The position numbers and the translations under genes were made by a program. The notes under the pieces are model-generated. The model searched no databases and was not told the origin of the DNA. It worked only from the letters and a program-made list of their open reading frames with translations. Below are positions 315 through 57,022 of a stretch of 64,000 nt of DNA, in pieces (the stretch's first letter is position 1; every line of letters begins with the position of its first letter). This DNA is from Streptomyces mirabilis (GTDB lineage: Bacteria > Actinomycetota > Actinomycetes > Streptomycetales > Streptomycetaceae): contig NZ_CP074102.1 in the NCBI RefSeq assembly GCF_018310535.1, positions 8,990,001 to 9,054,000 of the forward strand, written 5' to 3'.

Positions 315-820
315 TCACGGTAGAGGCGCACCGCCAGACGTCTGCCGCTGGTGGTTCCCTTCGCGGGCCTGAAGTACGGAGGCGGAGGTGCGCTCGATCA
401 ATTCGGAGAGGGCCGACCGCACCGGGTCGCTCAGTCCCGTGCCGAGTTCGACATCGGCCACCTCAACGGCGTGCACGACGACCTTCCGCGGGAGCAGGTC
501 GAGGGCTTCCGCCAGAGCGAGGCATTCCCCCAGCCCCAGGGCGTGTGTGCTCGCCGTACCAGTCCCGCGGCCGGCCGCCTCCGTCGCTGTCAGGGTGTGC
601 AGCGCGCCCGGCCTGGCCGGATGTAGACGGAGGGCTTCCACCACGACCGCGGTGTCCGCTCCGCGCCACAGTTCGAGCATCCGGCCGGGTTCGCCGTCGC
701 TGACCGCCAGCACGACGTCCTCGGGGACCCTGCCCCGCAAGGCCTCCACCACCGCCGGACCCGCCCCGTCGTCACCGCGAGGGGGTTGCCCACGCCGATC
801 ACCACGACCCGGCCGGTCAT
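315..820 (-). pseudogene. Hydrogenase maturation endopeptidase (HyaD/HycI family), apparently frameshifted
   Basis: The ATG at 818-820 overlaps the stop of the hydrogenase large subunit (ATGA), and translation starts [14 protein letters not shown], the usual first strand of this protease family. The expected continuation, RGDDGAGPAVVEALRG, appears only after a change of reading frame at about 780, beside a run of five C. From there an open frame runs to the stop at 315 and ends with a plausible C-terminus. The family removes the C-terminal peptide of the large subunit after nickel insertion. The metal-binding acidic residue of the GDD motif lies beyond the shift. Either one base is missing from the sequence or the gene is broken. 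Confidence 0.75.
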
Positions 821-2163
821 GCGCGTTCCACGGTCAGATCGAGGAAGTGGGCGGCGCAGGAGATGCAGGGGTCGTGATTGCGGATGGCCCGCTCGCACAA
901 GCGAATGAGCTCCTCGTCGTCGGCTGCGGCTCCGAGCCTGTCCAGGCGTGCCTGGACGGCCCGGCGTACGTCCTCCTCGATGGCCGTCTGGTTCTGTGCC
1001 GTGGGCGGGATGATGCGGGCCGAGGTGAGCGTGCCGTCCTCGGCAAGGGCGTAGCGGTGGTACAGCAGCCCGCGGGGTGCCTCGGTCGCTCCGGCGCCCA
1101 CCGCCTTCCGCGGGAGGACGTCGAGAGCCGACCGCGACGGTTGTTCGTAGCCCTCGATGATCCTCAGGGCTTCCTCGACGGCCTGCACCACCTCCACGGC
1201 GCGTACGACGATGCTTCGGAAGGGGTTGTCGCAGATGTCCCCGGCCAGGGGATCGCCCAGCCCGGCGTCCCTGGCGGCTTGGGCCGCCACCGGGTGGAGC
1301 CACCGGCCGTTGATCGCGTAGCGGGCCAGTGGGCCGGTCAGGTAGCGGCGGCCGTCGAGCGCGGCGGTCAGAGCGGTGCTGTGCGGCACCTGCTCTTCGT
1401 GCACGTGCTGTTCGAGGTCGGACACGGGGAACTCGCGCAGCGCAGGGGTTCGGCCGTGGGCGGTGATGGCCGTTGGTGTGCCGGAGTCGATGGCGTAGCG
1501 GCCGGGGTCGCGCAGTGCGAGCAGGTCGTGATCGCTTGCCGCGTCGGGGAAGTCGAACGCCGCCACCCAGCGGACGGTTTCCAGTGCGTCGTCGCGGGCC
1601 TGCCGCAACCGTTCGGCCAACGGACGGAGTTCCTCGGGCGCCGGTGTGCGGTAGAAGCCGCCGACGCGGACGTTGACCGGGTGGATGGGGCGTCCGCCCA
1701 GTTGTTCGAGGATCGCGTTGCCGGTCTGTTTGATCCGCAGGCCGCGCTCGACGGCCGCCCGCTGGTCGCGGGCGAGTTCGATGGCATCGGCCCGGCCGAG
1801 GAAGTCGGGGGCGTGCAGCAGGTAGATGTGCAGGGTGTGGCTCTCGATCCATTCGCCGCAGTACAGCAGGCGGCGCAGCTCCGCGAGAGGCCCGTCCACG
1901 GTGACACCGCAGGCGTTCTCGATCGCCTGGCAGGCGCTCATCTGGTAGGCGACCGGGCAGATTCCGCAGATGCGGGCGGTGATGTCCGGTGGCTCGGTGT
2001 GGCCCCGGCCGATCAGGAAGGCCTCGAAGAACCGGGGTGGTTCGTAGATGCGCAGCCGCGCCTCGGTGACCGTCTCCTCCTGTACGCGCAGGTGCAGGGC
2101 GGCTTCGCCTTCCACCCGGGCCAGTGCGTCCAGCCGCAGGACGCGGGTTCCGCGATGGCTCAT
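817..2163 (-). CDS. hydA: Group 3b [NiFe]-hydrogenase large (alpha) subunit
   Basis: This 448-aa protein carries both nickel-binding motifs of [NiFe]-hydrogenases. The N-terminal RICGICP has C66 and C69; the C-terminal DPCISCAAH has C433 and C436. The nine residues after H439 are the peptide normally removed by the maturation protease, whose gene follows with an ATGA overlap. Y replaces the usual H after RICGICPVA, as is common in the soluble bidirectional 3b group. The subunit holds the Ni-Fe(CN)2CO site where H2 is split or formed. The ATG at 2161-2163 overlaps the small-subunit stop, so translation is coupled through the operon. No signal peptide is visible, so it is cytoplasmic. Confidence 0.93.
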
Positions 2164-3110
2164 GCGGGCCTTTCCGGGTCGGTTTCTGTTCCTGCCCGAG
2201 GGGTGTCCTGCTCCTCGGCGGCGAGATCGGCTACGGGGGCATATTCCGGCGACGCGGCGTTGAAGGTGCGGAAGACACGCAGGATGTCCGCCTCGCTCAT
2301 TCCGTCGCGGCGCAGCTGCGCGACCATGGAGCGCAGGTTGGGCCGCTCGGCCGGTCCGAAGCAGCCGTAGCACCCGCGTCCGTAGGCGGGGCAGATGGCA
2401 CCGCACCCGGCATGGGTGACCGGGCCCAGGCAGGGGGTGCCGTGGGCCACTGTGACGCAGGTGGTGCCGCGCCTCTTGCACTCGAAGCAGACGCTGTGGC
2501 TGGGGATCTGGGGTTTGCGTCCGGACAGGTGGGCGGTGATGACTTCGAGGAGCTGGCGGCGGTCGATGGGGCAGCCCCGGAGTTCGAAATCGACCGGTAC
2601 GTGTGCCGAGATCGGGGTCGAGGTCTCCAGGGTGGCGATGTAGTCCGGGCGGGCATAGACCGCCGCGCGGAATGCGTCGACGTCTCCGAAGTTGCGCAGT
2701 GCCTGGATGCCGCCCGCGGTGGCGCAGGCTCCGATGGTCACCATGCGCCGGGAGATGCGCCGGATGTGTTGGATTCGCTCGGCGTCCTCGGCCGTGGTGA
2801 TCGAGCCCTCGACCAGGGAGAGGTCGTACGGACCCCGTCCGGACAGCTCCGCGCGCCCCCCGCTGGGACCCTCGGTGGCGGACATCTCCAGGAAGTGCTC
2901 GATGCGTACCTGCTCGGTGAGGCCGAGCAGTTCGTCCTCGCAGTCGAGCAGGGTCAGCTGGCAGCCGTCGCAGGACGCGAACTTCCATACGGCGAGCGTG
3001 GGCCGACGGTCCGGGTTCGCTCGTCGGCGGGCGGCGTCTCCCAGATCGGTGTCCGCCGCTCGGGCGGTGGACCGTCCTGGGGCGCCGGCCAGTCCTCGGT
3101 CGGATTCCAT
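2160..3110 (-). CDS. hydD: Group 3b [NiFe]-hydrogenase small (delta) subunit
   Basis: This 316-aa protein transfers electrons from the NiFe site. After about 40 poorly conserved residues comes [21 protein letters not shown] (C47 and C50 bind the proximal [4Fe-4S]). [15 protein letters not shown] segment and a cysteine-rich C-terminal half follow (CFECKRRG, then [17 protein letters not shown]), which supply the other clusters. There is no twin-arginine leader, which fits a cytoplasmic NAD(P)-linked enzyme and not a group 1 membrane uptake enzyme. The ATG at 3108-3110 starts 2 bp after the hydG stop. The first ATG is used because the frame is open and the operon spacing is tight, but a later start is possible. 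Confidence 0.92.
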
Positions 3111-3111
3111 C

Positions 3112-3930
3112 TCACAACTCCCGTACGGACAGCAGGCGTTCCACGCGGTCGTAGCCGACCACAGGTCCGTCCCGGCACAGCAGCAGCGGGCCGAGCTGGC
3201 AGTGGCCGCAGTGGCCGGAGGCGCAGCGCATGTTGCGTTCCAGCGACACCTGAACGCGGTGCGCGGCGAGGCCTCGGCCCATCAGGGCTCGCGCGGTGTG
3301 GCGCATCATCACCTCGGGCCCGCACACCAGCGCGTGGGTCCGGTCCGGCCGGAGTGCCAACGCGTCGAGGAGGGTGGTGACGACCCCCACCGAGCCTTGC
3401 CAGCCCGGGCCGGGGCGGTCGACGGTCACTCCCACCTCGGCCCTGCTGCGCCAGTTTTCGATGTCCTCCAGGTAGATCAGATCGCCAGGGCTACGGGTTC
3501 CCACCAGGATCCCCAGCCGACCGTAGGCGGCCGGCCGGTCCAGGACCGCGTGCACCACCGGTCGCAGTGGCGCCAGCCCGATGCCGCCGGCGATCACCAG
3601 TACGTCCTGGCCGGCTGCCGCGTCCAGGTCCCAGCGGGTGCCGAACGGCCCGCGCAGCCCGACGGTGTCCCCCGGACACAGGTCGTACAGGGCGGTCGAG
3701 ACCGCCCCCACCGCGCGTACGGTGTGCACGAGGCCCCCGTGCGAGCCGCGCAGGGCGCTGACCGAGACCGGCACCTCACCGACCCCGAACGCGTAGATCA
3801 TCGCGAACTGGCCCGGTGAGAAGGGCGGGAGTTCCCTGCTGGCAGGAACCAGTTCCACCGAACGGGTGTCGGCAGTCTCCGCCCGGGTTTCTGCGACCCG
3901 GTACGGCAGCGGTGGCGTCACGGTGCTCAT
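3112..3930 (-). CDS. hydG: Group 3b hydrogenase gamma subunit, FAD/NAD(P)-binding reductase
   Basis: This 272-aa ferredoxin-NADP reductase-type subunit passes electrons between the hydrogenase and NAD(P). An N-terminal FAD barrel has the PVSVS segment where RxYS is usual. A glycine-rich [12 protein letters not shown] stretch binds the nucleotide, and a C-terminal [2Fe-2S] motif has C236, C241, C244 and C252 (CASGHCGHC then C). The same layout occurs in PyrK and in HydG of archaeal sulfhydrogenase. The ATG overlaps the stop of the upstream cyclic-nucleotide-binding gene (ATGA), so the five genes form one translationally coupled unit. Confidence 0.9.
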
Positions 3931-4385
3931 GGCGGGCCGCTTCCGTGGGGTGCGTAGAGGTCCAGCAGCCTGATGCGGGTGGCCTGCAGGCGCTCGGCGA
4001 CAACCTCGGTGAAGCGGCGCATCAGGGCGTAGCCGAGTTCTGGGTCGGCGGCGCAGAGGGCGAGGACGTCGGTGGCGGGGAACTCCGTGGCTTCCACCGC
4101 GGTCACCGCTCGTGCGCCGAGGTGCCAGCGGTACGGCGGGCAGATCCACGACCAGCCCAGTAGTTGGCCCGGACCGAGCGTTTCCACCAGCGCCTCCGGT
4201 TGCCTGCCGGGAACGCAGATGTCGAGGGCGACCCTGCCGCCGCGCAGCAGCCAGAAGCGGTCGGCTTCTGCACCCTCGTCGAACAGGCGCGCGTCGGCCG
4301 GGAACACCACGTCGAGCCCGAGGGCCATCAGCCGCTCGCGCTGTGCGAGTGGCAGGAAGTCCAGGGGCGGCGGCAGCTCGGTCAC
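3927..4385 (-). CDS. Cyclic nucleotide-binding-domain protein inside the hydrogenase operon
   Basis: A 152-aa protein that is little more than one Crp/cNMP-binding beta-barrel: hydrophobic start [37 protein letters not shown], then [18 protein letters not shown], ending in a helix and [13 protein letters not shown]. There is no helix-turn-helix, so it is probably a ligand-responsive partner of the hydrogenase and not a transcription factor. The GTG at 4383-4385 overlaps the hydB stop (GTGA) and its own stop overlaps the hydG ATG. It is therefore coupled on both sides and probably made in step with the enzyme. The ligand is unknown: the canonical cAMP-contact motif RExAL is not recognisable. 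A truncated paralogue lies at 28092-28259. Confidence 0.75.
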
Positions 4386-5557
4386 GGTGCCTGCCCCGAT
4401 GCCTCGGACCGCGTCCAGTCGTGCAGAGCGGCGGCCTCCTCGGTGATGTCGATGCCCACCGGGCACCACACGATGCAGCGGCCGCAGCCCACACAGCCGG
4501 AGGAGCCGAACTGGTCGTACCACGTGCCGAGTTTGTGGGTCATCCACTGCCGGTAGCGACTGCGCGGGGACGTACGGACGGGGCCGCCGTGCAACTGGGA
4601 GAAGTCCAGGTCGAAGCACGAGTCCCACAGCCGCCACCGCTCCGCGTGGTCACCGGTGAGGTCGGTGACGTCCTCGGTGGTGGTGCAGAAGCATGTGGGA
4701 CACACCATGGTGCAGTTGCCGCACGTCAGGCAGCGCCCGGCAACGTCGTCCCAGCGGGGGGCGTCGAGCGTACCGGCCATCAGCTCCCGCAGGTCGGCCT
4801 CGGGCATGGTCCGTCCCATCCGGTCCGCGGCGGCGGCGACGCCCGCGCGGGCCGCCTCACGGGTGGCGGGGTCGGCCGGGCGGACGGGCAGTTGCGCCAG
4901 GATCTCGTCGCCTTCCCGGCTACCGCCGCGGATCCAGAAGCGGTGGCCGTCGTCATCGACCACCTCGGTGATCACCAGGTCACAGCCGAGAGGGGCCGCG
5001 GGTCCCGTGCCCATCGAGACACAGAAGCAGGTACCGCCGGGCTCCGTGCACTCGACCGCGATGAGCAGCGCTCCTGCGCGCCGCCCCTGGTAGGCGGGGT
5101 CGCGGTGGGTCCCCCCGGTGAGTACCCGGTCCTGGATGGCGATGGCCCGTGCGTCGCAGGGACGCACCCCGAGGAAGGCGTACCGCGGTGCCGGGGGCTC
5201 CTCGGCCGTGAACACGATCTCCTCGCCCACCCGGTCGGCACGCCACTGCCGCACCTTCGCCGGATGCAGGAACTGCTTCCACGACTGGGGGCCCGCCGCG
5301 TTCGCGAAGGCGGCACCGTCGGTCCGCTCCCGCAGCTGGTACCGCCCGGCTTCAAGTTCTACACCCCACCCGTACGGCAGCTCGTCGGCCGACTCCAGCT
5401 CGGCCAGCACGATCGCACCGTCCCGCACGGTGGGCCCGATCACGGTGAAACCGCGCCCGGTCAACACCTCCACCAGCGCGACCATGCCGTCCTTCCCCAT
5501 ATTCGACCCGCCGGACGCAGGAGGGGAGCAGGCGTTCATGTCGGGGTCCGTAGTCAT
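4382..5557 (-). CDS. hydB: Group 3b hydrogenase beta subunit, [4Fe-4S] protein
   Basis: This 391-aa iron-sulfur subunit is related to the archaeal sulfhydrogenase beta subunit and to AsrA. Two ferredoxin-type sites are visible near the C-terminus: [16 protein letters not shown] (C276 to C291) and [12 protein letters not shown] (C355 to C365). The N-terminal two-thirds carries the family segment [17 protein letters not shown]. It probably accepts electrons from the gamma subunit; in archaea the beta-gamma pair can reduce polysulfide. It is the first gene of the operon. The ATG at 5555-5557 is preceded by a GGAGAACGG-type ribosome-binding site and by a DevR-like box at 5656-5669. Confidence 0.9.
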
Positions 5558-12936: not shown

Positions 12937-13557
12937 TCACCGTACCCCCTGTGAGGCGGCCCAGCGGCGTCGCACCGCTTCCTCGTGTTCGGCCTCCTCC
13001 AACGCCAGCTCCACCGCGGACAGTTCACGTTGCAACCGGGGGATCCAGTGTCGGCGCAGGGCGCGGGATCGCCGCCGCGTCCGTTCGGCTTCGGCGGCGA
13101 GCAGTTCGGCCGCTGTCCGGTGGGCGGCGTGTTCCGCCGCTGCGCGGACCGCCGAGCGGTAGGCCGTCTCGGCGTGCGCCAGCGCGGTGTTGGGCGGCAT
13201 CTGTTCCGCGGGGGAGCGGACGGGGGCGGTCCAGGCCACGGCCGCGGGATGGCGTACGCCCATCAGCGCTGCCCACTCGACGTCGATGCAGGCTCGGTTC
13301 ACAGGCAGCGCCTGGGTCAGTGCTCGTTCGCCGCCGAGGAGCACCCCGCGCAGCAGCCAGGTGTCGGCGGCGGCCAGTTCTTCCCGCCACACCGAACCCG
13401 CATCCTCCGCAGCCCGTCGTTGCACACGCTCCCGGTCCAGCAGGAGCCGGAGTTTGCGTTCCAGCAGGTCAGCTCCGCGCTGCGCGGTGGCGAGGTTACG
13501 GCGAAGCCGCAACCGCCCGGCCCGTCCCACCGGCACTCGGCGCCCGTGCGTGCTCAC
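12937..13557 (-). CDS. atpD: V/A-type ATPase subunit D (central rotor shaft)
   Basis: This 206-aa, almost entirely helical, arginine-rich protein begins RVPVGRAGRLRLRRNLATAQRGADLLERKLRLLL, the normal start of V-ATPase subunit D. It ends in a second long coiled coil (RALRRHWIPRLQRELSAVELALEEAEHEEAV). Together these form the antiparallel coiled-coil shaft that turns inside A3B3. The GTG at 13555-13557 overlaps the stop of subunit B (GTGA). It is the last gene of the nine-gene operon. Confidence 0.85.
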   Translation of the reverse strand: MSTHGRRVPVGRAGRLRLRRNLATAQRGADLLERKLRLLLDRERVQRRAAEDAGSVWREELAAADTWLLRGVLLGGERALTQALPVNRACIDVEWAALMGVRHPAAVAWTAPVRSPAEQMPPNTALAHAETAYRSAVRAAAEHAAHRTAAELLAAEAERTRRRSRALRRHWIPRLQRELSAVELALEEAEHEEAVRRRWAASQGVR

Positions 13558-14945
13558 GGCGGCCCCTCGCCCTGCGGCGGGGCGTGGGCGTCGAGCAGGT
13601 CCGCCGGGATCATGCCGAGCTGGCTGCGCGGCAAGGTCAGCAGCACTTCCCAGGCCCGGTCCAGGGACTCGTCCAATGACCGGTTCTCCTTCGTTCCCTG
13701 GGCCAGGAACCGGTGCCGGACAGCGTTCTCCAAGTCGAGGTGGCGCAGGTCGGTCGGGCTGAGTGCCGACCGTCCGATCAGGTCGGCGAGTTCCCGCACC
13801 TGCCGGGACCGGGCCAGCGCGGCGATCAGCTGCGCGGCGACGGCCGGATGGTCCGCGCGGGTCCGTCCCGCTCCGGTTCCCTTGCGCATCAGGCGCGACA
13901 GCGAGGCCAGCGGATCCACGGGCGGATACGTGCCGGCCGCGTGCACCTCGGCGGACAGCACGATCTGCCCCTCCGTGATGTAACCGGTGAGGTCCGGAAC
14001 GGGGTGGGTGATGTCGCCCGCCGGCATGGTGAGCACCGGCAGGACGGTCACCGACCCCGGGCGGCCCCTGATCCTGCCGCAGCGTTCGTAAAGGGACGCG
14101 AGGTCGCTGTAGAGGTAGCCCGGATACGCCCGCCGGGCCGGAATCTCGCCCCGTGCAGCGGACACCTCGCGCAGCGCTTCCGAATAGGCCGTCATATCTG
14201 TCATCACGACCAGGACGTGACGGCCCTCGGCGAACGCCAGGTGCTCGGCGACGGTCAGCGCGAGACGCGGCGTCAGCAACCGTTCGATCACCGGGTCGTC
14301 CGCGGTGTTGAGGAACAGGACCAGTTCTCGCGCGGCGGAGCGGGCGGCCAGTCCGTCACGGACGAACGCCGTGTCGGCGTGTGTGAGCCCCATACCGGCG
14401 AACACGACGGCGAACGCCTCGCCGCCGCACGTCGCTTGGGCCGCGATCTGCACCGCCAGTTCCAGGTGCGGCAGCCCGGCCACCGAGAACACCGGCAGCT
14501 TCTGTCCCCGCACCAGCGTGGTGAGCACGTCCACGGCGCCCACGCCGGTGAGCACCGGCTCGTCAGGGGGTTCCCGCCGTACCGGATTGATCGGTGCGCC
14601 GCCCACCGCCACGGACGTGCTGCCCAGCACCGGCGGCCCGCCATCGGCCGGTTCGCCCCTCCCGTTGCACACCCTCCCCAGCCATCCGCTTCCGGCCGGG
14701 ATCCGCAGTGGCGTGCCCGAGAACGCGACGCGGGTGCCCGTGCGGTTCATGCCGGCCGTGTCCTCCAGGACCTGCACCACCGCAAGGTCGCGGTCCACCT
14801 CGAGGACCAGCCCGTGCCGTCGTTCTCCGAAGTCGAGGACGATCGTGGCGAACTCGTCCCACCCCACCCCGCTCACGCCTTCGACGACCACGAGCGGGCC
14901 GCGCAGTTCCCGCACGCCCGTGTACTCGATGTCCGCACTGTTCAT
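13554..14945 (-). CDS. atpB: V/A-type ATPase subunit B (regulatory nucleotide subunit)
   Basis: This 463-aa protein alternates with subunit A in the catalytic head. It has the V-type B features: an N-terminal beta-barrel (VEGVSGVGWDEFATI), GLPHLELAVQIAAQA where catalytic subunits have a P-loop, VVFAGMGLTHADTAFVRDGL, MTDMTAYSEALREVSAARGEIPARRAYPGYLYSDLASLYERCG and PVLTMPAGDITHPVPDLTGYITEGQI. The length is normal. The first codon overlaps the A-subunit stop. No frame breaks are visible. Confidence 0.93.
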   Translation of the reverse strand: MNSADIEYTGVRELRGPLVVVEGVSGVGWDEFATIVLDFGERRHGLVLEVDRDLAVVQVLEDTAGMNRTGTRVAFSGTPLRIPAGSGWLGRVCNGRGEPADGGPPVLGSTSVAVGGAPINPVRREPPDEPVLTGVGAVDVLTTLVRGQKLPVFSVAGLPHLELAVQIAAQATCGGEAFAVVFAGMGLTHADTAFVRDGLAARSAARELVLFLNTADDPVIERLLTPRLALTVAEHLAFAEGRHVLVVMTDMTAYSEALREVSAARGEIPARRAYPGYLYSDLASLYERCGRIRGRPGSVTVLPVLTMPAGDITHPVPDLTGYITEGQIVLSAEVHAAGTYPPVDPLASLSRLMRKGTGAGRTRADHPAVAAQLIAALARSRQVRELADLIGRSALSPTDLRHLDLENAVRHRFLAQGTKENRSLDESLDRAWEVLLTLPRSQLGMIPADLLDAHAPPQGEGPP

Positions 14946-16729
14946 GCCGCCTCCTTGAGCCGGGCCAGCACGGTGTCGCGGGCCGCCGCCACGGGAGCGG
15001 TCTCCGTTGGGCCCGCGGTCTCACGGGCCCGCAGCAGCGGGGTGAAGTCGACCGCCTCGACTGCGTCCGCCGGGGCACCGGAGTCCACCAGCTCCAGACA
15101 GCAGTCGATCGCTGCCAGCACGGCGTCCACGAGGGCCGCGGTCTTCTCGGGGGCGCTGTAGGCGTCCGCCGGCGACAGTGCGCTCTGCTGGATCACGGCT
15201 TCGCGCAGCAGCCGTCCCGCGAGCACGCTGATCCGCTCCCGCGGCGGCAGGGCCGTGATGCCGACCAGTTCGACAAGATCGGCCAGCCGGTCGGCCTCGG
15301 CCAGCAGCCGCGTCACTCGCCCGTGCCGCTCGGTCCACTCGGGGTCGCCGGCCCGCGCGTGCGCAGCGGCCAGCGCGGCGGTGTCCCGCGAGAAGGAGTC
15401 CGCCCAGGAGATGGCCGGATAGTGCCGTGCATAGGCGAGGTCGCGGTCCAGGCTCCACAGGCACCGCACGAACCGTTCGGTGTGCGCGGTGACCGGCTCG
15501 GTGCGGTCGCCACCCGGCGGGGACACGGCTCCGATCACCGTGACGGAGCCACGGGTGTTGCCGAGGGTGCGCACCGCGGCGGCCCGTTCATAGAACGCGG
15601 CCAGTTGGGAGGCGAGCCCCGCCGGATAGCCTTCCTCGGCAGGGAGTTCGCCCATGCGGGAGGCGAACTCGCGCAGTGCCTCCGCCCAGCGGGAGGTCGA
15701 GTCGGCGATCAGGACGACTTCGAGGCCCATGTCGCGGAAGTACTCGGCGACCGTCGCACCCGTGTGCACGCTTGATTCGCGGGCCATCATCGGCATGTTG
15801 GAGGTGTTCGCGATTGTCACGGTCCGATCCGCCAGACGGCCTCCGGTACGGGGATCGGTCAGCTCCGCAAGCTCCTCGATGACGTCCGCCATCTCGTTGC
15901 CGCGCTCGCCGCAGCCGACGTAGACGATCACGTCGGTGTCGCACCACTTGGCGATCTGTTGCAGCAGCATGGTCTTGCCAGTCCCGAAGCCGCCCGGTAC
16001 GGCGACCGTGCTGCCGCGGGCCACCGGGAAAAGCAGATCGACGGCCCGCTGCCCGGTGTTCAGTGGCATGTCGGCCGGCAGCCGCCGCGCTACCGGTCGC
16101 GGCCTGCGCACGGGCCAGGACTGCGCCATCCGCACCTCGTGTCCGCCCACCACGGCGAGCACGGCGTCGGCGGAGTGCTCGCCCGCCGCCGCGACCCGGG
16201 TCACCTCGCCCGAGCGGTCCGGAGGCACCAGGAGCCGCATGGGCACGCTCGCGGCGATCTCCCCGAGGACGTCCCCGCCCGCGACCCGCGCTCCCTCGGC
16301 CACCCCTGGTGTGAACGACCAACTGCGCGCTTCCGGTGCTTCGCTCGGCTCGCCTGTCGTGAGAAGGTCGCCGGCGCCGGCCAGGGGGCGCAGCAGGCCG
16401 TCGTACACGCCGCCGAGCAGATCCGGGGCCAGGCGTACCGACAACGGTCGGCCTTGGGGCTCCGCCGGATGTCCCGGGCTCAGTCCACCCGTGTACTCGT
16501 ACGCCTCGACGGTGGCCGTGTCGCCGTGGATGGCGACCACCTCGCCCGGCAGCCGGGCGGCGCCGAGCACGACCATGTCGTGCATGGCGACCGAAGGGGG
16601 GCAGACGATCTCTACCAGGGGGCCGGTCACGCGGAGAATCCGAGAGCGGGATGGATCGTCCGCCTGGAGGCGTGCCGGTCCGGCACACGTGGCCTGCCGG
16701 CCTGGCCCCGAACTGCTGGGTGTGGTCAC
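14942..16729 (-). CDS. atpA: V/A-type ATPase subunit A (catalytic)
   Basis: This catalytic subunit of about 595 aa has its P-loop GGFGTGKTMLL near residues 246-256, followed by IVYVGCGERGNEMADVIEEL (GER motif with the catalytic glutamate) and ADSTSRWAEALREFASRMGELPAEEGYPAGLASQLAAFYERA. The long non-homologous region typical of V/A-type A subunits is present (residues about 110-200), separating it from F1 beta. The GTG at 16727-16729 is used because it overlaps the subunit E stop and is preceded by GGAGG; a GTG four codons upstream is also in frame. Confidence 0.93.
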   Translation of the reverse strand: MTTPSSSGPGRQATCAGPARLQADDPSRSRILRVTGPLVEIVCPPSVAMHDMVVLGAARLPGEVVAIHGDTATVEAYEYTGGLSPGHPAEPQGRPLSVRLAPDLLGGVYDGLLRPLAGAGDLLTTGEPSEAPEARSWSFTPGVAEGARVAGGDVLGEIAASVPMRLLVPPDRSGEVTRVAAAGEHSADAVLAVVGGHEVRMAQSWPVRRPRPVARRLPADMPLNTGQRAVDLLFPVARGSTVAVPGGFGTGKTMLLQQIAKWCDTDVIVYVGCGERGNEMADVIEELAELTDPRTGGRLADRTVTIANTSNMPMMARESSVHTGATVAEYFRDMGLEVVLIADSTSRWAEALREFASRMGELPAEEGYPAGLASQLAAFYERAAAVRTLGNTRGSVTVIGAVSPPGGDRTEPVTAHTERFVRCLWSLDRDLAYARHYPAISWADSFSRDTAALAAAHARAGDPEWTERHGRVTRLLAEADRLADLVELVGITALPPRERISVLAGRLLREAVIQQSALSPADAYSAPEKTAALVDAVLAAIDCCLELVDSGAPADAVEAVDFTPLLRARETAGPTETAPVAAARDTVLARLKEAA

Positions 16730-17231
16730 GGCGGCCTCCACAGCGTCTCGGCCTGCGCACCCAGCCGTTCCAGGGCACGGTCGGCGAGGGCGTCCGCCGA
16801 CAGGTCGACCCGTCGGCCGGGCACCTCGGCCGTCACTCCACCCTCCGCGGCAGCCGTGACCCGCGCCTGTGTTCCCAACAGCGCCCGTGCCGCCTCGGCG
16901 AGTCGGGCCTGAGGTACGGCACCTTCCGCCATCGCTCGGCGCACGCCCGTGCGGACCGCGGCCCTGAGTTCGGCGTAGACCTCGGAGCGAGCCGCGAGTT
17001 CCGCCGCCCAGGCGTCCTGCACCGCTCGCACTCGTTCCCGGGCCGCCTCGGCGGCGCCGTCTGCCTCCCCGAGGTCCCGGGCTTGCGCGAGCACCTCGTC
17101 AGCAGAACCGTGTGCCGCGCGCAGGGTTTCCTCCGCGTCGGCCCGCGCTCGTTCCCGGACAGCGTCGGCCGACGCCCGTGCCGCGCGCAACAACTCGGCG
17201 CGCACGGGGTCCAGTGCGTCCATGGACGCGG

Positions 17232-17235
<4 letters not shown>
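16726..17235 (-). CDS. atpE: V/A-type ATPase subunit E (peripheral stalk)
   Basis: This 169-aa protein has a long alanine/arginine-rich helix (RAELLRAARASADAVRERARADAEETLRAAHG) and a compact C-terminal domain with GGVTAEVPGRRVDLSADALADRALERL, as in subunit E. It pairs with the H/G-type subunit to form the stator stalk that holds A3B3 still. The sequence is divergent, so the assignment rests on length, architecture and operon position between F and A. ATGA overlap upstream, GTGA overlap downstream. Confidence 0.75.
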
Positions 17236-19285
<2,050 letters not shown>

Positions 19286-19299
<14 letters not shown>

Positions 19300-20215
19300 C
19301 GAAGACCTCCCCGGACCGTCCGCCACGCGCCGCCGACTCCAGCGCCGCCCGCACCCGCCAGGCGTCCACGGACAGCACCGCGACCGCACCCACGACCACG
19401 CGGAGCCCGTACCGGCCCTCGCGCAGCATCGCCGCACCGTCGGCCTGAACCGTCCGCCACCAGCGGGCCTCGGCCTTCCACAGCGCGCCCGCTTCCTCGA
19501 TGTCGGCCAGGACCCAACCGGCCGTTGCGGGAAGACGCTCGCGAAACTCCTGGTACGAGGTGGCGGCCGACGCCCGCGCCCCGAGCAGTCGTGCCGCGTC
19601 ACGCCGCGCGGGCCCCGGCAGAGGGCGCTGATACACGAACAGTTCACGAGCCGTCAGCAGGACGGCGCGTCCCTGGGCCCAGCGACGCGCGGGCGGTACG
19701 GCGACGGCGGTGCGCCGCGCGGCGGCCATCCTCATGCCCGTGATCAGGGCCCACGGCGTGTCGCCACCCGGATCGCCCCAGGGTGAGGCGATGAGCGCCG
19801 CCCGCAGTTCCGCAGGTGTCCCGGCACGCTCCAGCGTCCGCCAGGCAGTCTCCAGCGCGCCGAGCCGGTACGGTTCCGGGGCCTCCGCACGGCGACCGTC
19901 CGGCGCGGGCAGCAGGGAGGCCACGTTGGCGATCTCGAACCCCGCAGCAAGCGGAACGAGCAAGCGGGCACCACCCCGGGGCAGCCAGCCGGCCAGCACC
20001 CGCAGATGCCACAGCAGCGTGGCGGTCACCGCCCGCTGAGCCTCGGGCAGGCCGACCACCGTCCGCGCATATCTCGAGTACGGGGTCGCCGCCAGGCATC
20101 GCAGGGCGTCGTCGAACGTGCCACACCCGGCGATCTCCCTCGCCCCACCGGCACCCGGGTACCGGCAGACGAGGGCCTTGGCCCGTACCGCCCCGGCGAC
20201 CCAACCGGCACTCAT
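19286..20215 (-). CDS. atpC: V/A-type ATPase subunit C/d (rotor-ring adaptor)
   Basis: This all-helical 309-aa protein matches subunit C (eukaryotic d), the funnel that couples the central shaft to the c-ring. It contains KALVCRYPGAGGAREIAGCGTFDDALRCLAATPYSRY, WHLRVLAGWLPRGGARLLVPLAAGFEIANVASLL and EARWWRTVQADGAAMLREGRYGLRVVVGAVAVLSVDAWRVRAAL. The ATG overlaps the stop of the upstream stalk subunit, and its own end overlaps the start of subunit I by 14 bp. Confidence 0.8.
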
Positions 20216-20655
20216 GGCGCTTCGCCTTCGCCGGGGCCTCCTGCCAGGCGCAGCGCGTCGGCCACCGCACGGTCCACCAGATCCGGCATGCGCTCCCCGG
20301 CCCGCTCCCGGACGGCCGAAGTGGCGAGGCCCCCGGCGACGCGCAGGGCCTCCGCCTCCCGCCGCGCCTCCCGGAGGACGGGTTCCGCGGCCTGTCGTCG
20401 GATCTCGGGAGCACGCTCGCGGGCGGCCGCCACGAGCTCTGCCGCCTGCCGCACGGCGTCCTGCCGTACGGCTGCGGCCGCCGCGTCCGCCGCGGCCCGG
20501 ATCCGTTCCGCCTCCTGCTGCACATCCGTCAGCTGTGCGAGGGCGGGCTCCAGTTCCGCGGCCCGTTCTGCCGTACGGTCGGCGGGCACGCCAGTGGCGG
20601 ACGCTCCCGGCGTCCCCACCGGACGGAACCGCTCCAGGAAGTCCCGCAGGCTCAT
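20212..20655 (-). CDS. V/A-type ATPase peripheral stalk subunit, G/H-like
   Basis: First gene of the ATPase operon, 147 aa. Nearly the whole protein is a charged alanine/arginine/glutamate coiled coil (EPALAQLTDVQQEAERIRAAADAAAAAVRQDAVRQAAELVAAARERAPEIRRQAAEPVLREARREAEAL). This suits the G/H stalk partner of subunit E. Sequence identity in coiled coils is a poor guide, so the call depends on position. The ATG at 20653-20655 follows AGGAGGCC. A DevR-like box lies 90 bp upstream. Confidence 0.7.
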   Translation of the reverse strand: MSLRDFLERFRPVGTPGASATGVPADRTAERAAELEPALAQLTDVQQEAERIRAAADAAAAAVRQDAVRQAAELVAAARERAPEIRRQAAEPVLREARREAEALRVAGGLATSAVRERAGERMPDLVDRAVADALRLAGGPGEGEAP

Positions 20656-20744
20656 CGGCGGCCTCCTGCCGGTCGGCTGCTCTCTCAGTGTCACCGTTCT
20701 CCTTCCGCCCCGCACCGGCTAGGGCCGTAACGCCGTCGATCAGG

Positions 20745-20758
20745 GCCGTTCGGCTCTT
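20745..20758. promoter_or_regulatory. DevR-like box between V-ATPase operon and CBS-BON gene
   Basis: GGGCCGTTCGGCTC has one mismatch to GGGNCNNNNGNCCC. It is 90 bp from the ATPase operon start and 64 bp from the divergent CBS-BON gene, so it may control both. A weak second copy starts at 20724. Confidence 0.55.
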
Positions 20759-20821: not shown

Positions 20822-21694
20822 GTGAACGACCACGAGAACTTCTCCGCGGAGGCCGAGGCCCGGCAGGACCTGCCCTCCCAACCCTGGAGCCCCGGCGAGG
20901 CGGGCCGACAGGACATGCTGATTCGCTACCTGGGAGCCGTGGCCACAGCCGCGGCCGAACACGCACATGCCGAAGAGCAGGCCCCTGTACGCGGCACCGC
21001 CCGCCCCGCGACGCCGGCCGCCTCGCCCTCGCGGCAACCTTCGCCGCCCGAAGCCGGGGTCCCGCTGGTGAGGGACGTGATGGACGTACCCGCTGCCTCC
21101 CTGCGCGACGACCTGCCGTACCGCGACATCGCCCGTCTGCTGGCGCGTGAGCGGGTCGGCGCCCTCCCGGTCGTGGACGGCGAGGGCCACGTGGTCGGCG
21201 TCGTCTCGGAGTCCGACCTGCTGGCGAAGGTGGCCTTCGAGGCTTCCGGCCATCGGCCCGGACGCATCGGAAGGCTGCGCGAGCGACGGATGTACAGCAA
21301 GGCCCGCGGTGAGACGGCCGCCGACCTGATGACGAGCCCCGCGGTCACGGTGCTCCCGGGCGCGACCGTCGCCGAGGCCGCCTGGCTGGCCGCACTGTCC
21401 CGGCTCAAGCGGCTTCCGGTCACCGATGGCTTGGGTCGCCTGGTCGGAGTCGTGCCCCGCGACGCGCTGCTCCAAGCCCTCATCAGGGACGACGCAGGCA
21501 TACGGGCAGAGGCCGAGGCCAGGATCGAGGCCTGTTGCCCGCCGGAAGACCGGGCCACGGTGGAGGTGGCCGTCCATGACGGCATCGTGGAACTGACGGG
21601 ACGGATGCCGTCGGCCACCTCGGCCCGGCTGGTGGCGGAGGTGGAAGACATCGCTGATGTCGTCGAGGTGAAGAACCTCCTCACCGCCGCCTGA
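20822..21694 (+). CDS. CBS-domain pair plus BON domain protein (long N-terminus)
   Basis: This 290-aa protein starts with a GTG. About 80 residues of acidic and proline-rich sequence (AEAEARQDLPSQPWSPGEAGRQDMLIRYLGAVA) come first. Two CBS repeats follow (LVRDVMDVPAASLRDDLPYRD to VVGVVSESDLL, then AADLMTSPAVTVLPGATVAE to LVGVVPRDALLQAL), and a BON domain (VEVAVHDGIVELTGRMPSATSARLV). It is divergent from the V-ATPase operon and shares its DevR-like box. Adenine-nucleotide sensing is the usual CBS role; the target is unknown. Confidence 0.83.
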   Translation: MNDHENFSAEAEARQDLPSQPWSPGEAGRQDMLIRYLGAVATAAAEHAHAEEQAPVRGTARPATPAASPSRQPSPPEAGVPLVRDVMDVPAASLRDDLPYRDIARLLARERVGALPVVDGEGHVVGVVSESDLLAKVAFEASGHRPGRIGRLRERRMYSKARGETAADLMTSPAVTVLPGATVAEAAWLAALSRLKRLPVTDGLGRLVGVVPRDALLQALIRDDAGIRAEAEARIEACCPPEDRATVEVAVHDGIVELTGRMPSATSARLVAEVEDIADVVEVKNLLTAA

Positions 21695-21715: not shown

Positions 21716-22417
21716 TCAATGCGCTGAGTGGTCCCCGGCCTCGTCCTGGTCGAGGTGGGAGGCGAGGACCGCCGCCTGGACCCGGCGCTGGACGCCCAGC
21801 TTGGCCAACAGCCGGGAGATGTGGTTCTTGACGGTCTTCTCCGACAAGTACCGCTTCCTGCCGATCTCACGGTTGGTCAGGCCATCGCCAATCAGGGCGA
21901 GGATGTTCCGTTCCCGGGGCGACAGACTCGTCAGTTCGGGCGGCAGCGACGGTGTCCCGGCCGGCTCTGCACGCGGCGACCGCATGAGTTGGGCTGTCGT
22001 GGCCGGGTCGAGCATCGATTGTCCCGAAGCGACGGTGCGCACCGCCGACACCAGGTCGGAGCCCTTGATGTGTTTCAGCACATAGCCGGAGGCACCGGCC
22101 ATGATCGCGTCCAGTAGGGCGTCCTCGTCGTCGAATGAGGTCAGCATCAGACATGCGAGCCGCGGCATCCGGTCGCGCAGCTCCCGGCAGACCGAGATCC
22201 CGTCACCGTCGGGGAGACGTACGTCGAGTACGGCGACGTGCGGGCGGAGCGCGGGGCCGCGGGCGAGGGCGTGTTCGGCGGTGTCGGCGTCGCCGACGAC
22301 GGAGATGTCCGGTTCGGTGTTGAGCAGGTCGGTCAGGCCGCGTCGTACGACCTCGTGGTCGTCGAGCAGGAACACCCGGATCGGGTTCTGTTCCGTGAAG
22401 GCGCCTGTCTCGGCCAT
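21716..22417 (-). CDS. devR: DevR/DosR-like NarL-family response regulator
   Basis: This 233-aa protein has a receiver domain with VFLLDDHEVVRRGLTDLL, phosphoacceptor segment AVLDVRLPDGDGI, LMLTSFDDEDALLDAIMAGASGYVLKHIKG, and a LuxR-type HTH with SLSPRERNILALIGDGLTNREIGRKRYLSEKTVKNHISRLLAKLGVQRR. The stretches DDHEVVRRGL, LDAIxAGASGYVxKxIKG and EKTVKNxxSRLLAKLG are those of mycobacterial DevR/DosR. No histidine kinase is adjacent, so it is an orphan here and a DevS-like sensor must be elsewhere. It is the obvious candidate to bind the palindromes described in this window. A box about 83 bp upstream suggests autoregulation. Confidence 0.88.
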   Translation of the reverse strand: MAETGAFTEQNPIRVFLLDDHEVVRRGLTDLLNTEPDISVVGDADTAEHALARGPALRPHVAVLDVRLPDGDGISVCRELRDRMPRLACLMLTSFDDEDALLDAIMAGASGYVLKHIKGSDLVSAVRTVASGQSMLDPATTAQLMRSPRAEPAGTPSLPPELTSLSPRERNILALIGDGLTNREIGRKRYLSEKTVKNHISRLLAKLGVQRRVQAAVLASHLDQDEAGDHSAH

Positions 22418-22499
22418 GATCACCCCTCGGCCCCCGGGCAAGCACGGACTGCGAGCTGTCGACGAAGGCGATCGTCACCCACAGTTGCCGAACACACCA

Positions 22500-50174: not shown

Positions 50175-53451
<3,277 letters not shown>

Positions 53452-53519
53452 ATACGTGGCTTGCTGCGAATGAGCTGGACTGCTTTCAGCACTGCACTCG
53501 GCCCTTCTGCGTGTGGTGG

Positions 53520-54866
53520 TCAGTGGGACCCGGCCGCCTGGTCGGTGATGAACCCGGCCAGCCGGTCGATTCCCTCGGCGATGTCGGCCTGCGTCAGATA
53601 GCTGACGGACAGCCTGAGCGTGCGCTCGCCACCGCCCTGGGGGTAGAAGTACGACATCGGCGTCCAGATGACGCCGAATTCCTCGGCCGACCTGGTGAGC
53701 GCGGCGTTGTCGGCGGTGAACGGGACGTCGACGGCCAGGAAGAAGCCTCCGCTCGGAGTGTTCCAGCGGACGCCGAGACCGGCCCGGACATCGTCCGGGA
53801 AGCACGCGTCCAGCCGTCGCAGCGTGGCGTGCATGGCCTGCTCGTAGTGGGCGGACGTCTCGGTGTTGAGCTGTGAGGGACGGCCGTCCGAAGCGAGCAG
53901 CATGCCGGCGACCACCGCCTGGCTCAGCGGTGAGGTGTTCACCGTGACCATGCTCTTGATCTTGGCGAGTTCGTCCGCGAGCAGTCCGCTGCCGCCCCTG
54001 CGGTCGGCGACGATCTGGTCCGCGACGGCGAAACCCAGCCGAGCACCGGGAAACAGCGTCTTGGAGTACGAGCCGAGATGGACCACCCGGCGCTCGCGGT
54101 CCAGGGACTTGAGCGTCGGCAGTTGCCGTCCGGGGCTCACCAGACGGTAGGGACTGTCCTCGAGGATCAGGAAGTCGTGCCGCGCGGCCAGGTCGAGGAG
54201 TTCGTGCCGGGTGCGCAGCGGCATGGTCGTACCGGACGGGTTCGAGTGGTCAGGGACGACGTAGAACGCCCGGGGGCGGCGCCCGCGGTCCCGTTCGACG
54301 AGGAGCGCCGTCTCCAGGTCGTCGCAGCTGAACCCGTCCGGCCTCTCCGCCACCGCCGTCAGACCGATGTCGAGCAGGCCGGCGGCACCGGTGATGCCGA
54401 CATAGCAGGGGCTGGACACCAGCAGCACGTCGTCGGGTCCCGGGATGAGGGCGCGCAGCGTCAGGAACATCGCCTCCTGGCACCCCACCGTGACCACGAT
54501 GGACTCCGGCGGGACGTCGATGCCCTCGTCCTTGAGCAGCGAGTCGGCGATCAGGTCGCGGATCCGGCCGCTGGTCGGGCCGTACTGGAAGAGCGCGTCC
54601 CGGATCTCGCCGGATGAGCAGCCGGTCTCCACCAAGTGATCGAGGTAGCGGCGCATATGGACGAAGATCTGCTCGGTGTCGAAGAAGCCGTCGTACGGGC
54701 GGCCGGGGGCGAACGAGATCGCGTGGGGATACCGGTGGGTGACCTCGTTGAGGAAGTTCATCGTGTCCAGCACCGGATCGCAGACGCTGGCGTGCAGCTC
54801 GTCCTGGAAGAGGTCGGCCGACGCGGTGACGGCCGCCGCCGTGCCGGCGGACTCCGTGCGGCTCAT
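53520..54866 (-). CDS. hpgT: HpgT-like PLP aminotransferase
   Basis: This 448-aa fold-type I aminotransferase is of the kind that makes phenylglycines from phenylglyoxylates, with tyrosine as amino donor. Markers are FAPGRPYDGFFDTEQIFVHMRRYLDHL, YGPTSGRIRDLIADSLLKDEGIDV, VTVGCQEAMFLTLRALI, FYVVPDHSNPSGTTMPLRTRHELLDLA and the PLP lysine segment VHLGSYSKTLFPGARLGF. In glycopeptide clusters one HpgT serves both Hpg and Dpg. The ATG overlaps the stop of the HmaS-like gene. Here it probably makes Dpg from the DpgC product. Confidence 0.9.
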   Translation of the reverse strand: MSRTESAGTAAAVTASADLFQDELHASVCDPVLDTMNFLNEVTHRYPHAISFAPGRPYDGFFDTEQIFVHMRRYLDHLVETGCSSGEIRDALFQYGPTSGRIRDLIADSLLKDEGIDVPPESIVVTVGCQEAMFLTLRALIPGPDDVLLVSSPCYVGITGAAGLLDIGLTAVAERPDGFSCDDLETALLVERDRGRRPRAFYVVPDHSNPSGTTMPLRTRHELLDLAARHDFLILEDSPYRLVSPGRQLPTLKSLDRERRVVHLGSYSKTLFPGARLGFAVADQIVADRRGGSGLLADELAKIKSMVTVNTSPLSQAVVAGMLLASDGRPSQLNTETSAHYEQAMHATLRRLDACFPDDVRAGLGVRWNTPSGGFFLAVDVPFTADNAALTRSAEEFGVIWTPMSYFYPQGGGERTLRLSVSYLTQADIAEGIDRLAGFITDQAAGSH

Positions 54867-55657
54867 GGGGCCACCGCGCTCTGGTGGGCCATGGCACGAC
54901 CATGGAAGACGTGCGTCACGGGCGCCGGCCCGGCGACCGGGAACGTGAGCTGCCGTACGCCCGGACCGCCGTGCGCGGCCAGGAACGCGGCGGGACCCCC
55001 CGGCCTCGGATCCTCCCCCGGACCGGGTGCCATAAGGGAGAACGTCACATCCCCCGAGGCGCTGCGGACGACACGGGAACCCACCGGTGGCCCGCCGGGG
55101 CCGGAGCGGGCGGCGCCGTCCGGAGAGAAAGCGAAGGCGTCACGGTAGAAGCCCTCGTGTTCGGTGAGACGGTCCCCTTCCACGACGATCTCCACGCGCT
55201 GCGGACGGTGGCGCTCCCTCCGGCCGCGCACCGTAGGAGGCGGACTCGCCGGATCCGTCGCCCAACGCCTGCCCGAAGGCAGCCCGGTGCGGGAACCGCG
55301 GGGGAGCGGGAGCAGGGTGTGGCGGATACCGCCGAACCCGGAGATCACCGGATTTCCCCCCATGACATCGGCCAGTACGGCGCCGGCGGCCAGCGCCGAG
55401 TCCAGGGTGGCCGCCACGTCGTCGCACACGAGTGCGATGTCGGCGACACCATCGCCGTGCCGGTCCAGGTACTTCCAGCAGGCGGGGCCCGAGGTGATCA
55501 GCAGATGTGCCGTGCCCAGCCGCAGCAGTACCGAACTCCGGTCCACACCGACCGAGTCCACCAGACGTGTGAAGCCGAGGGTGGCTGCAAGACGGTCGAC
55601 GGTGGACAGTTTGTCCTTCGCGTAGACATCGATGTACGCCACATCGCGCACAACCAT
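54863..55657 (-). CDS. HmaS-like VOC protein lacking all metal ligands
   Basis: This 264-aa protein aligns with 4-hydroxymandelate synthase (usually about 350 aa). Shared features are VRDVAYIDVYAKDKLSTVDRLAATLGF, HGDGVADIALVCDDVAATLDSALAAGA, FYRDAFAFS, VRSASGDVTFSLMAPGPGEDP and FLAAHGGPGVRQLTFPV. The iron ligands do not survive. The first histidine (IDHFAI in HmaS) is R154, the second (GVQHIAF) is Q236, and the C-terminal glutamate region is absent. The frame is otherwise clean with normal codon use, so it looks maintained. It is unlikely to oxidise 4-hydroxyphenylpyruvate; a binding or scaffold role, or slow decay, are the options. It is translationally coupled to hpgT. Confidence 0.75.
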   Translation of the reverse strand: MVVRDVAYIDVYAKDKLSTVDRLAATLGFTRLVDSVGVDRSSVLLRLGTAHLLITSGPACWKYLDRHGDGVADIALVCDDVAATLDSALAAGAVLADVMGGNPVISGFGGIRHTLLPLPRGSRTGLPSGRRWATDPASPPPTVRGRRERHRPQRVEIVVEGDRLTEHEGFYRDAFAFSPDGAARSGPGGPPVGSRVVRSASGDVTFSLMAPGPGEDPRPGGPAAFLAAHGGPGVRQLTFPVAGPAPVTHVFHGRAMAHQSAVAP

Positions 55658-55939
55658 GAGAGCACCTCCTCAAGGCGCTGGAGCCGCTGGAGAACCGGCG
55701 CACGGCACGGGGGCGATGCGGTCGGTGAGCGGAAATTCAGATAAGCGCAGCCCGTGCTTCTGGCGGCGGATAAAGGAAAGTGGAGAATGCCTGACGCCCG
55801 CGGCGCCGAGGGCCGGAAATTCCGCTGAACGGAACGTGCTGGATAGAACTATGACCTGCCGCGGCCGGGTCGATCAATACTTGCCCGCGTCGGTGCGTTC
55901 AACTGACGCCGGGGCCGGGGTTGGACAGCCGCCGAGCGG
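55658..55939. promoter_or_regulatory. Upstream region of the HmaS-like/hpgT/dpg operon
   Basis: This 282-bp gap has no gene. It is less GC-rich in the middle (GGAAATTCAGATAAGCGCAG, GATAAAGGAAAGTGGAGAAT on the forward strand), as expected for a promoter. GTTCAACTG at 55897-55905, followed after about 12 bp by GGGTTGGAC, loosely resembles the StrR/Bbr consensus GTTCGACTG-N11-CAGTCGAAC, but with several mismatches. Confidence 0.4.
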
Positions 55940-57022
55940 CTAGCGCAGCCGCCAGCCGCGCTCTTGGAGGGTGTTCTCCACCAGCGCGACCGACTCCTGG
56001 GCCACGCTGAGGTACACCACACCCGCGAGCCGGCCCGTGGCGTGCTCCAGACGAACGTCCTCGATGTTGACGCCCGAGCGGCCGGCGTCGGTGAACAGCC
56101 GGGCCATCTCGCCGGGCTGGTCGCCGATCAGCACCGACACGGCCGCGTACCGCACGGGGCGGCCGTCGTGCTTGCCGGGGATCCGGGCGCGCCCTGTGTT
56201 GCCCTGGCGCAGTACGTCCTCGATGACCTCGGCACCGTGGGCGCGCTTGGCGTCGTCCGTCGCTGCCATCGCGCGCAGACCGCCGATGGTGGTGTCCAGG
56301 TCGGCCGCCAGCTCTTCGAGGAGGTCGGCCACGACGCCCGCGTTGGCGCTGAGGATGTCGACCCACAGCCGCGGGTCCGAGGCGGCGATCCGGGTGAGAT
56401 CCCGGATGCTGGGACCCGCCAGGCTCACGGCCCGCCCTTCCGCCTGCGTCAGCCGCATGGCGACCAGGCTCGCCACCAGATGGGGCATGTGCGACACCAG
56501 CCCGACCGCCATGTCGTGCGCCGCAGCGCCCATCACCACGGGCGTGGCGCCGCACAGGGCCACCAGTTCCAGCGCCGTGTTGAGGGTCTCCGTGTCGGTC
56601 TCGGCGGTGGGCGTGAGCACCCACGCACGCCCCTCGAAGAGGTCACCCCGGGCCGCCAGCGGGCCGCTGCGCTCGGCGCCGGCCATGGGGTGTCCGCCGA
56701 TGTAGCGGCGCATGTCGCAGTCCAGCGCGCCGAGGTCCTGTTCCAACCCGCCCTTGACCCCGGCGACGTCCGTGTAGTGACGTGCCACGCCCTCGTCCTG
56801 GAGTGCCCGCAGGACCCGGCCGACCATGGCCGGGGGTACGGCGACGACCGCCAGATCCACCACTCCCTCGGGTGGCTGTCCGGTGCCGGAACCGAGCGAC
56901 GCGGCCGTGCGGACCGCGAGCGGATCGAGATCCCTCAGATGCACGTTCACGCCCCGGTTGCTGAGCGCCAGCGCCGCGGAAGTGCCTATCAGTCCTGTAC
57001 CGACCACAACGGCGGAGAGCAT
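55940..57022 (-). CDS. Prephenate dehydrogenase with C-terminal ACT domain
   Basis: This 360-aa enzyme converts prephenate to 4-hydroxyphenylpyruvate. The NAD site is LSAVVVGTGLIGTSAALALSNRG. Family blocks DVAGVKGGLEQDLG, YIGGHPMAGAERSGPLAARGDLFEGRAWVLTP and DMAVGLVSHMPHLVASLVAMRL (catalytic histidines) are intact. A C-terminal ACT domain (VSVLIGDQPGEMARLFTDAGRSGVNIEDVRLEHA) suggests feedback control by an aromatic amino acid. In glycopeptide-type clusters this gene feeds tyrosine and hydroxyphenylglycine. Here it most likely supplies tyrosine, the amino donor for HpgT. Confidence 0.92.
   Translation of the reverse strand: MLSAVVVGTGLIGTSAALALSNRGVNVHLRDLDPLAVRTAASLGSGTGQPPEGVVDLAVVAVPPAMVGRVLRALQDEGVARHYTDVAGVKGGLEQDLGALDCDMRRYIGGHPMAGAERSGPLAARGDLFEGRAWVLTPTAETDTETLNTALELVALCGATPVVMGAAAHDMAVGLVSHMPHLVASLVAMRLTQAEGRAVSLAGPSIRDLTRIAASDPRLWVDILSANAGVVADLLEELAADLDTTIGGLRAMAATDDAKRAHGAEVIEDVLRQGNTGRARIPGKHDGRPVRYAAVSVLIGDQPGEMARLFTDAGRSGVNIEDVRLEHATGRLAGVVYLSVAQESVALVENTLQERGWRLR

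Follow-up and report, generated by a model that had tools for sequence, protein, structure and literature searches.

The 64-kb stretch of DNA analysed here, called the window below (C1:8990001-9054000 in the 9.62-Mb genome of Streptomyces mirabilis), contains nine genes predicted to encode a complete V/A-type rotary ATPase, and sequence comparison assigns the enzyme to an actinobacterial clade of this type. In the reading that we favour, with a probability of about 0.55, the ATPase would be an accessory module of a DevR/OsdR hypoxia-dormancy island, a hypoxia-induced H+ pump spending fermentation ATP to hold the proton-motive force. The features computed were the integrity of the operon, its catalytic residues, purifying selection, conservation, the position of a regulatory box, the island setting, the co-occurrence with a hydrogenase and a missing stator lobe.

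The nine genes lie on the minus strand between positions 20655 and 12937, in the order H-C-I-K-F-E-A-B-D. All open reading frames (ORFs) are open and 8/8 gene junctions overlap, by 4 to 16 bases each; because every junction overlaps, translation of the genes is probably coupled. A contig scan gave 232 relatives, and the 80 best loci (L027-L106) were retained. Within this sample, Walker-A K256 and the catalytic glutamate E279 of subunit A were found in 80/80 loci, the arginine finger R351 of subunit B and the carboxylate E119 of subunit K each in 77/77, and R381 and R439 of subunit I in 74/74 readable loci. The ratios of nonsynonymous to synonymous substitution rates (dN/dS), calculated against the relatives L028, L034 and L042, ranged from 0.08 to 0.40 across the nine subunits, L028 being left out for C and D, which were uncalled there. 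All nine genes are under purifying selection, and a pseudogene or degenerate operon was ruled out from the open frames and these ratios. The full nine-subunit order was found in 60/80 loci and the detected subunits followed it in 79/80. As judged by eye, most gaps were contig ends or undetected short subunits. Two loci were true exceptions: in L093, C is inverted, and in L084 (Streptomyces sp. CB02959) the stretch from inside H to inside E is absent: at L084:9579-9965 the first part of H now runs into the last part of E through a deletion that took C, I, K and F and left A, B and D as well as the hydrogenase genes.

These ORFs, overlaps and conserved residues bear out the original prediction of nine coupled, open V/A-type genes with intact catalytic motifs. 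The position given for the operon was also correct, but its extent (12937..20758) was too long: the operon proper stops at 20655, and 20656-20758 is the promoter region. Ordinary F1-type ATP synthase genes had been expected alongside the V-type set, and two further alpha/beta-type ATPase genes are indeed adjacent at 2.52 Mb in the same genome, which fits F1Fo as judged from the alpha/beta pair.

The promoter region holds an OsdR/DevR-like box, AGGGCCGTTCGGCTCT, at 20742..20757 (unstranded), between the V-ATPase operon on the minus strand and a divergent CBS-BON gene on the plus strand. It scores 15.7 with a position weight matrix (PWM) built from 25 published OsdR sites (PMC5069765). Its centre lies upstream of both genes, 95 bp from H and 72 bp from the CBS-BON gene, in agreement with the predicted DevR-like box about 90 bp upstream and common to both genes. 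A possible second, weaker box (20721..20736, unstranded, PWM score 9.2) lies 21 bp from the first. In the window five sites score at least 14, where 20 shuffles gave 0.45 on average. Among the relatives, the best score upstream of H reached at least 12 in 33/65 loci against 0.6 expected from shuffles, namely in 31/46 Streptomycetaceae loci and 2/19 others; 15/650 pieces from the operon interior reached this score. The box core is nearly unchanged in 18 close relatives, which share recent descent, and the spacer around it is more variable. In the first 40 kb of the window 12 sites score at least 11: the centres of 8 precede an island gene by 90-130 bp and that of one by 150 bp, and 3 are away from gene starts, which were chosen by hand, that of the universal stress protein (USP) at the window edge being assumed. 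Of the genomic sites matching the OsdR consensus with one mismatch, 2/22 fall inside the 64-kb window, with about 0.15 expected by length. Outside Streptomyces, mycobacterial-type DevR cores reach 11/14 positions in 10/22 loci against 3.05 expected from 14 plain shuffles keeping base composition, which is suggestive only. Overall, the upstream box supports the V-ATPase operon as a predicted member of the OsdR/DevR regulon.

As a separate observation, OsdR-like sites also occur in pairs 20-21 bp apart (31461/31481, 25643/25663, 23008/23028 and 9650/9671); the partners score weakly, and the pairing stands without a null expectation. Such spacing would be as expected for cooperative DevR-type binding.

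Around the operon stand the genes of the predicted island. The CBS-BON protein that shares the box (20822..21694, plus strand) passes the Pfam cut-off for CBS and narrowly misses that for BON, and is followed by a NarL/DevR-type response regulator (21716..22441, minus strand; Pfam Response_reg and GerE, the nearest NCBIfam models, MadR and NarL, being below cut-off). Genes for an NAD(P)-linked [NiFe] hydrogenase resembling group 3b (alpha, small, FAD/NAD and Fe-S subunits plus one small extra gene; matches below model cut-offs) occupy 817..5557 on the minus strand. Other island genes encode USPs, CBS-BON proteins, nicotinate phosphoribosyltransferase (NAPRT), Hsp20, an M50-CBS protease, oleate hydratase, flavohaemoglobin and AdhE.

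This company recurs among the relatives. Neighbours were counted in the 80 loci, window excluded, over flanks of up to 10 kb, one representative being identified per cluster. USPs flank the operon in 51 loci (57 when a further USP cluster is counted), including 17/26 loci outside Streptomycetaceae; CBS proteins do so in 46 loci, a PMR1/SERCA-like P-type cation ATPase in 21, a nitroreductase and an AMP ligase in 19 each, Hsp20 in 18, pyruvate-dehydrogenase-type E1a/E1b/E2 in 16/15/14, TrkA proteins in 15, NAPRT in 11 and hydrogenase alpha in 5. Of the 146 USP domains scored in 16 V-ATPase genomes, 37 map no further than 50 kb from subunit A, where 1.5 would be expected; USPs are clustered, so that these events are not independent, and the domains used were the best ones listed, less four rows (two of G311, of which one lay close to the V-ATPase, and two of G380 from a different contig). 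The dormancy-island setting that had been proposed is supported, the neighbourhood of the operon being of DevR type.

The hydrogenase alpha subunit (E <= 1e-60) was detected in 30/36 V-ATPase genomes and in 45/355 others (Fisher p 1e-18, own genome excluded), which carries the predicted hydrogenase linkage beyond the genome under study. A patchy polyketide synthase (PKS) gene from the same window, used as a control, lacked this pattern (2/36 versus 53/355, p 0.20). Both enzymes are on one contig in 20 genomes, own included, at 100 kb or less in 17 and at 20 kb or less in 12. One proposed role of the hydrogenase fared less well: H+ gradients linked to it are unsupported, because the window enzyme resembles, below model cut-offs, the NAD(P)-linked sulfhydrogenases, which are soluble and pump no protons.

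Two side observations concern these neighbours. A pyruvate-dehydrogenase-type E1a-E1b-E2 operon is a common V-ATPase neighbour in Streptomyces (L036:15959-19944; L044, L052, L053, L055, L056, L061 and others), often with an AMP ligase ahead and a small acyl-carrier-protein-like protein behind. In one relative (G080:C1:69110-70498) the alpha gene of the hydrogenase close to the V-ATPase is in two pieces and probably broken. A 938-aa neighbour (cluster 10), considered as an ADP-forming acetate ligase, turned out to be a P-type cation ATPase in the representative tested.

The mechanism that we propose would run as follows. As oxygen runs out, OsdR~P would turn the V-ATPase operon on. A3B3 would hydrolyse ATP made by fermentation, whose redox balance the NAD(P)-linked hydrogenase would keep. 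Hydrolysis would turn the D-F-C-K rotor, and H+ would be exported through E119 in K acting together with R381/R439 in I, so holding the proton-motive force and internal pH in resting mycelium. The question of how aerobic actinobacteria hold their membrane potential without respiration bears on soil survival and on dormancy in general. A rotary ATPase in a dormancy island of cultivable soil streptomycetes makes this question testable by gene deletion and, if the proposal is right, the V-ATPase may be a dedicated engine for anoxic survival.

Several points weigh against this proposal. Induction by hypoxia, H+ as the ion and the direction of pumping are all inferred from genome-level data. The score upstream of H is below 12 in 15/46 Streptomycetaceae loci and in 17/19 others, with no clear box at Mycobacterium loci, and the OsdR consensus, one mismatch being allowed, is unenriched genome-wide (22 sites versus 35 for the reversed control). 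The Fisher tests on co-occurrence ignore the relatedness of the genomes. AdhE, predicted to be linked to the operon, is not supported as a partner: its co-occurrence is non-significant (13/36 V-ATPase genomes versus 84/355 others, p 0.11) and it does not figure in the 45 flank clusters listed as most frequent. Because C, I, K and F are lost in L084, the enzyme is dispensable there. Finally, if K were cut at its A-x-A motif, the product would form a Thermus-like ring, which would suit ATP synthesis too.

The last point belongs to the main rival, which we hold to be distinctly less probable: a hypoxia-induced ATP synthase with a higher H+/ATP ratio and a large ring of small K subunits, making ATP where the proton-motive force does not suffice for F1Fo, as in nitrate or trace-oxygen respiration. 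The ring subunit K (17462..17872, minus strand, 136 aa; Pfam PF00137 5.5e-15, AlphaFold2 (AF2) model) carries E119 and an extra N-terminal hydrophobic pair ending in A56-x-A58. In the family alignment A58 is nearly invariant in its A-x-A context, as would fit a K that loses its N-terminal pair and forms a small ring subunit of two helices; counting A-x-A before the K hairpin (72/72) was too loose a pattern and was discarded in favour of A58. The best PDB matches of subunit A are moreover named A-type/V-type ATP synthase, at about 500-528 bits versus 454 for the sodium V-ATPase. Against synthesis, the AF2 model of K keeps four helices, with moderate confidence, as in a pump-like ring, and the genetic company (hydrogenase, USPs) is of a fermentative, dormancy type.

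It is rather improbable, in our estimation, that the operon is a passenger, carried along on variable chromosome arms and giant plasmids, its island company reflecting shared mobility instead of function. This explanation draws on the patchy distribution of the enzyme, its location on large plasmid records, some mixing of genera in the tree and the loss of four subunits in L084. Subunit A was detected in 37/392 same-genus genomes, own included, at 65-100% identity (E <= 1e-80). In a sample of the phylum it was matched in 93/396 genomes; besides the own genome, one match was at 69% (a partial match) and the rest were at 41-51%, all labelled as outside the class. The best 80 of 232 relatives are mostly Streptomyces and also include Kitasatospora, Streptantibioticus, Nocardia, Mycobacterium, Mycolicibacterium, Nocardioides, Georgenia, Myceligenerans, Pedococcus, Amycolatopsis, Saccharopolyspora, Rhodococcus, Dactylosporangium, Virgisporangium, Actinoplanes, Actinoallomurus and some metagenome bins. 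Relatives also occur on records that are filed as plasmids and measure 0.9-3.1 Mb. The original prediction that V/A-type enzymes are unusual in streptomycetes needs changing, the enzyme forming an actinobacterial clade that is present in these 37/392 genomes and in other families, Micromonosporaceae among them. In a quickly built tree, of which the inner grouping alone was interpreted (long outgroup branches, one bad row, L112), Streptomycetaceae form one group with an SH-aLRT of 88, under the 95 mark. Because Mycobacterium and Nocardia are each split, some transfer or paralogy is likely in the history of the V-ATPase. The passenger explanation is opposed by purifying selection in all nine genes, by the conserved gene order and box, and by the co-occurrence with the hydrogenase, unlike the patchy control gene.

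A Na+-translocating V-ATPase as in Enterococcus hirae is the least probable reading, even though, among solved structures, subunit I is matched best by its counterpart in the E. hirae V-type sodium ATPase, since subunit A obtains a poorer score with the sodium V-ATPase than with A-type chains, and the K hairpin contains no Gln, the sequence around E119 being AEGIAVYG with Gly after E119. Na+-type V-ATPase rings carry polar Na+ ligands such as Gln; none of these is present in K, as had been predicted from the retained E119 without Na+-type ligands.

The proposed proton pump remains our preferred reading, and its subunits were identified with uneven strength. Pfam matches above cut-off were obtained for A, B, D, I, K and F, and both A and B pass the NCBIfam subfamily cut-offs for V/A-type. 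Catalytic subunit A (14942..16741, minus strand as for all that follow, 599 aa, GTG start) matches NCBIfam NF003220 over residues 32-570 (8.8e-191, 635 bits); its first ~31 residues lie outside the family models and its predicted start is uncertain. Subunit B (13554..14945, 463 aa), which bears R351, matches NF003235 (3.1e-179, 597 bits), and the central axle subunit D (12937..13557, 206 aa) matches Pfam PF01813 (7.7e-29). For H and E no V-ATPase Pfam match above cut-off was found. The family profile of H (H/G, a peripheral-stalk coiled coil; 20212..20655, 147 aa) matches the V-type G chain 5y5x_I (E 2.5e-05), and that of E (peripheral stalk; 16726..17235, 169 aa) the V-type E chain 2dm9_A (4.7e-05); in both searches of the PDB a designed helical bundle scored higher, so that these matches carry modest weight. 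H and E are fast-evolving coiled coils, tied weakly, and by family profiles alone, to V-type G and E. Subunit C, the AC39-like rotor adaptor (19286..20215, 309 aa), reaches Pfam AC39 at E 0.0079 (16 bits versus a cut-off of 29) and gave no V-type match in the PDB profile search; its operon position and length fit, and a relative carries the name 'V-type ATPase subunit'. In a related operon on plasmid p1 of S. fungicidicus, the H, F and E products are annotated as 'hypothetical protein'. Apart from the clade, some A matches in other actinobacterial classes (G669:C57, G617:C69, G462:C14, G649:C69, G576:C3) lie in frames of 1068-1151 aa of which the later part alone is matched, and inteins in A are suspected.

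Two subunits are shortened. Subunit I/a (17857..19299, 480 aa; Pfam PF01496 2.5e-20) is without the coiled arm and distal lobe: about 190 residues are missing, query residue 50 aligning to residue 236 of E. hirae I. The AF2 model shows one alpha/beta lobe and its fold matches Vo a/I subunits; the membrane domain and the two essential Arg are present. Subunit F (17232..17465, 77 aa), without its C-terminal part, matches Pfam PF01990 over profile positions 1-59 of 91 (4e-06) and the V-type F in the PDB profile search (E 0.0044). The clade median lengths, window included, are 474 aa for I (75 called genes) and 75 aa for F (65 called genes), from a simple purpose-made gene caller, some entries being contig-end fragments. 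Gene-calling errors were rejected as a cause, the short lengths recurring in the called genes of relatives: short I and short F are clade traits, and the shortening first noticed in the window is confirmed. In eukaryotes the soluble arm of a/I is a two-lobed dumb-bell, with one peripheral stalk at each of its proximal and distal lobes (PMC10313074). From its single lobe, the alignment gap and the clade median of 474 aa, subunit I falls outside this two-lobed subgroup. As the missing arm and distal lobe normally hold one peripheral stalk, their loss predicts one stalk attachment fewer, and the short subunit I offers a natural test of the number of peripheral stalks that a V/A rotary motor needs. 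We raise only tentatively, as doubtful, the idea of an unrecognised class of compact actinobacterial V/A rotary ATPases, placed between V/A and F types, which would have dropped the distal stator lobe, one peripheral stalk and the tail of F and would work in dormant cells as a proton pump under a DevR switch, coupled to fermentation that the hydrogenase supports.

Compared with known systems, the enzyme shares with the Thermus thermophilus V/A-ATPase its subunit types, catalytic motifs, one-carboxylate ring hairpin and the membrane domain of I, but the Thermus I has 652 aa versus 480 here, F is shortened here, and regulation differs. The Thermus gene order is also different from H-C-I-K-F-E-A-B-D. 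With the E. hirae V-type Na+-ATPase it shares the V-type architecture and the closest solved subunit I; unlike in that enzyme, K lacks Na+-type ligands, and the arm of E. hirae I (about residues 45-235, ~190 residues) has no counterpart here. The island resembles the OsdR regulon of Streptomyces coelicolor and the DevR regulon of M. tuberculosis in its 16-bp palindromic box and in the USPs near osdR (parts of PMC5069765), but includes a whole rotary ATPase, and the word ATPase is absent from the main text of that paper. The A/V-type ATPase of Melissospora conviva is likewise actinobacterial and is reported as a gain relative to Micromonospora strains; in the passages concerned, regulation, gene island and structure are undiscussed, and we set it beside the present clade by its description (PMC12451618). 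A V-type ATPase is also mentioned for Nocardia seriolae, as a KEGG module in a table, and Streptomyces V-type ATPase genes are already auto-annotated in databases. Among the papers listed by searches of an open-access library, subscription papers being outside our scope, we found neither a V-type ATPase linked to DosR, DevR or OsdR nor a note of the missing lobe.

Finally, a few minor observations were made by eye outside the operon. A Rho-like protein of ~415 aa was seen at G000:C1:8119046-8119657 (L006), and a weaker alpha/beta-family match at 2.54 Mb may be the usual Rho. Beyond the island, positions 50175-56860 of the window hold the PKS-like gene that served as the control and its neighbours, which, judging from the protein starts only, we take to resemble a hydroxyphenylglycine-type biosynthetic cluster.

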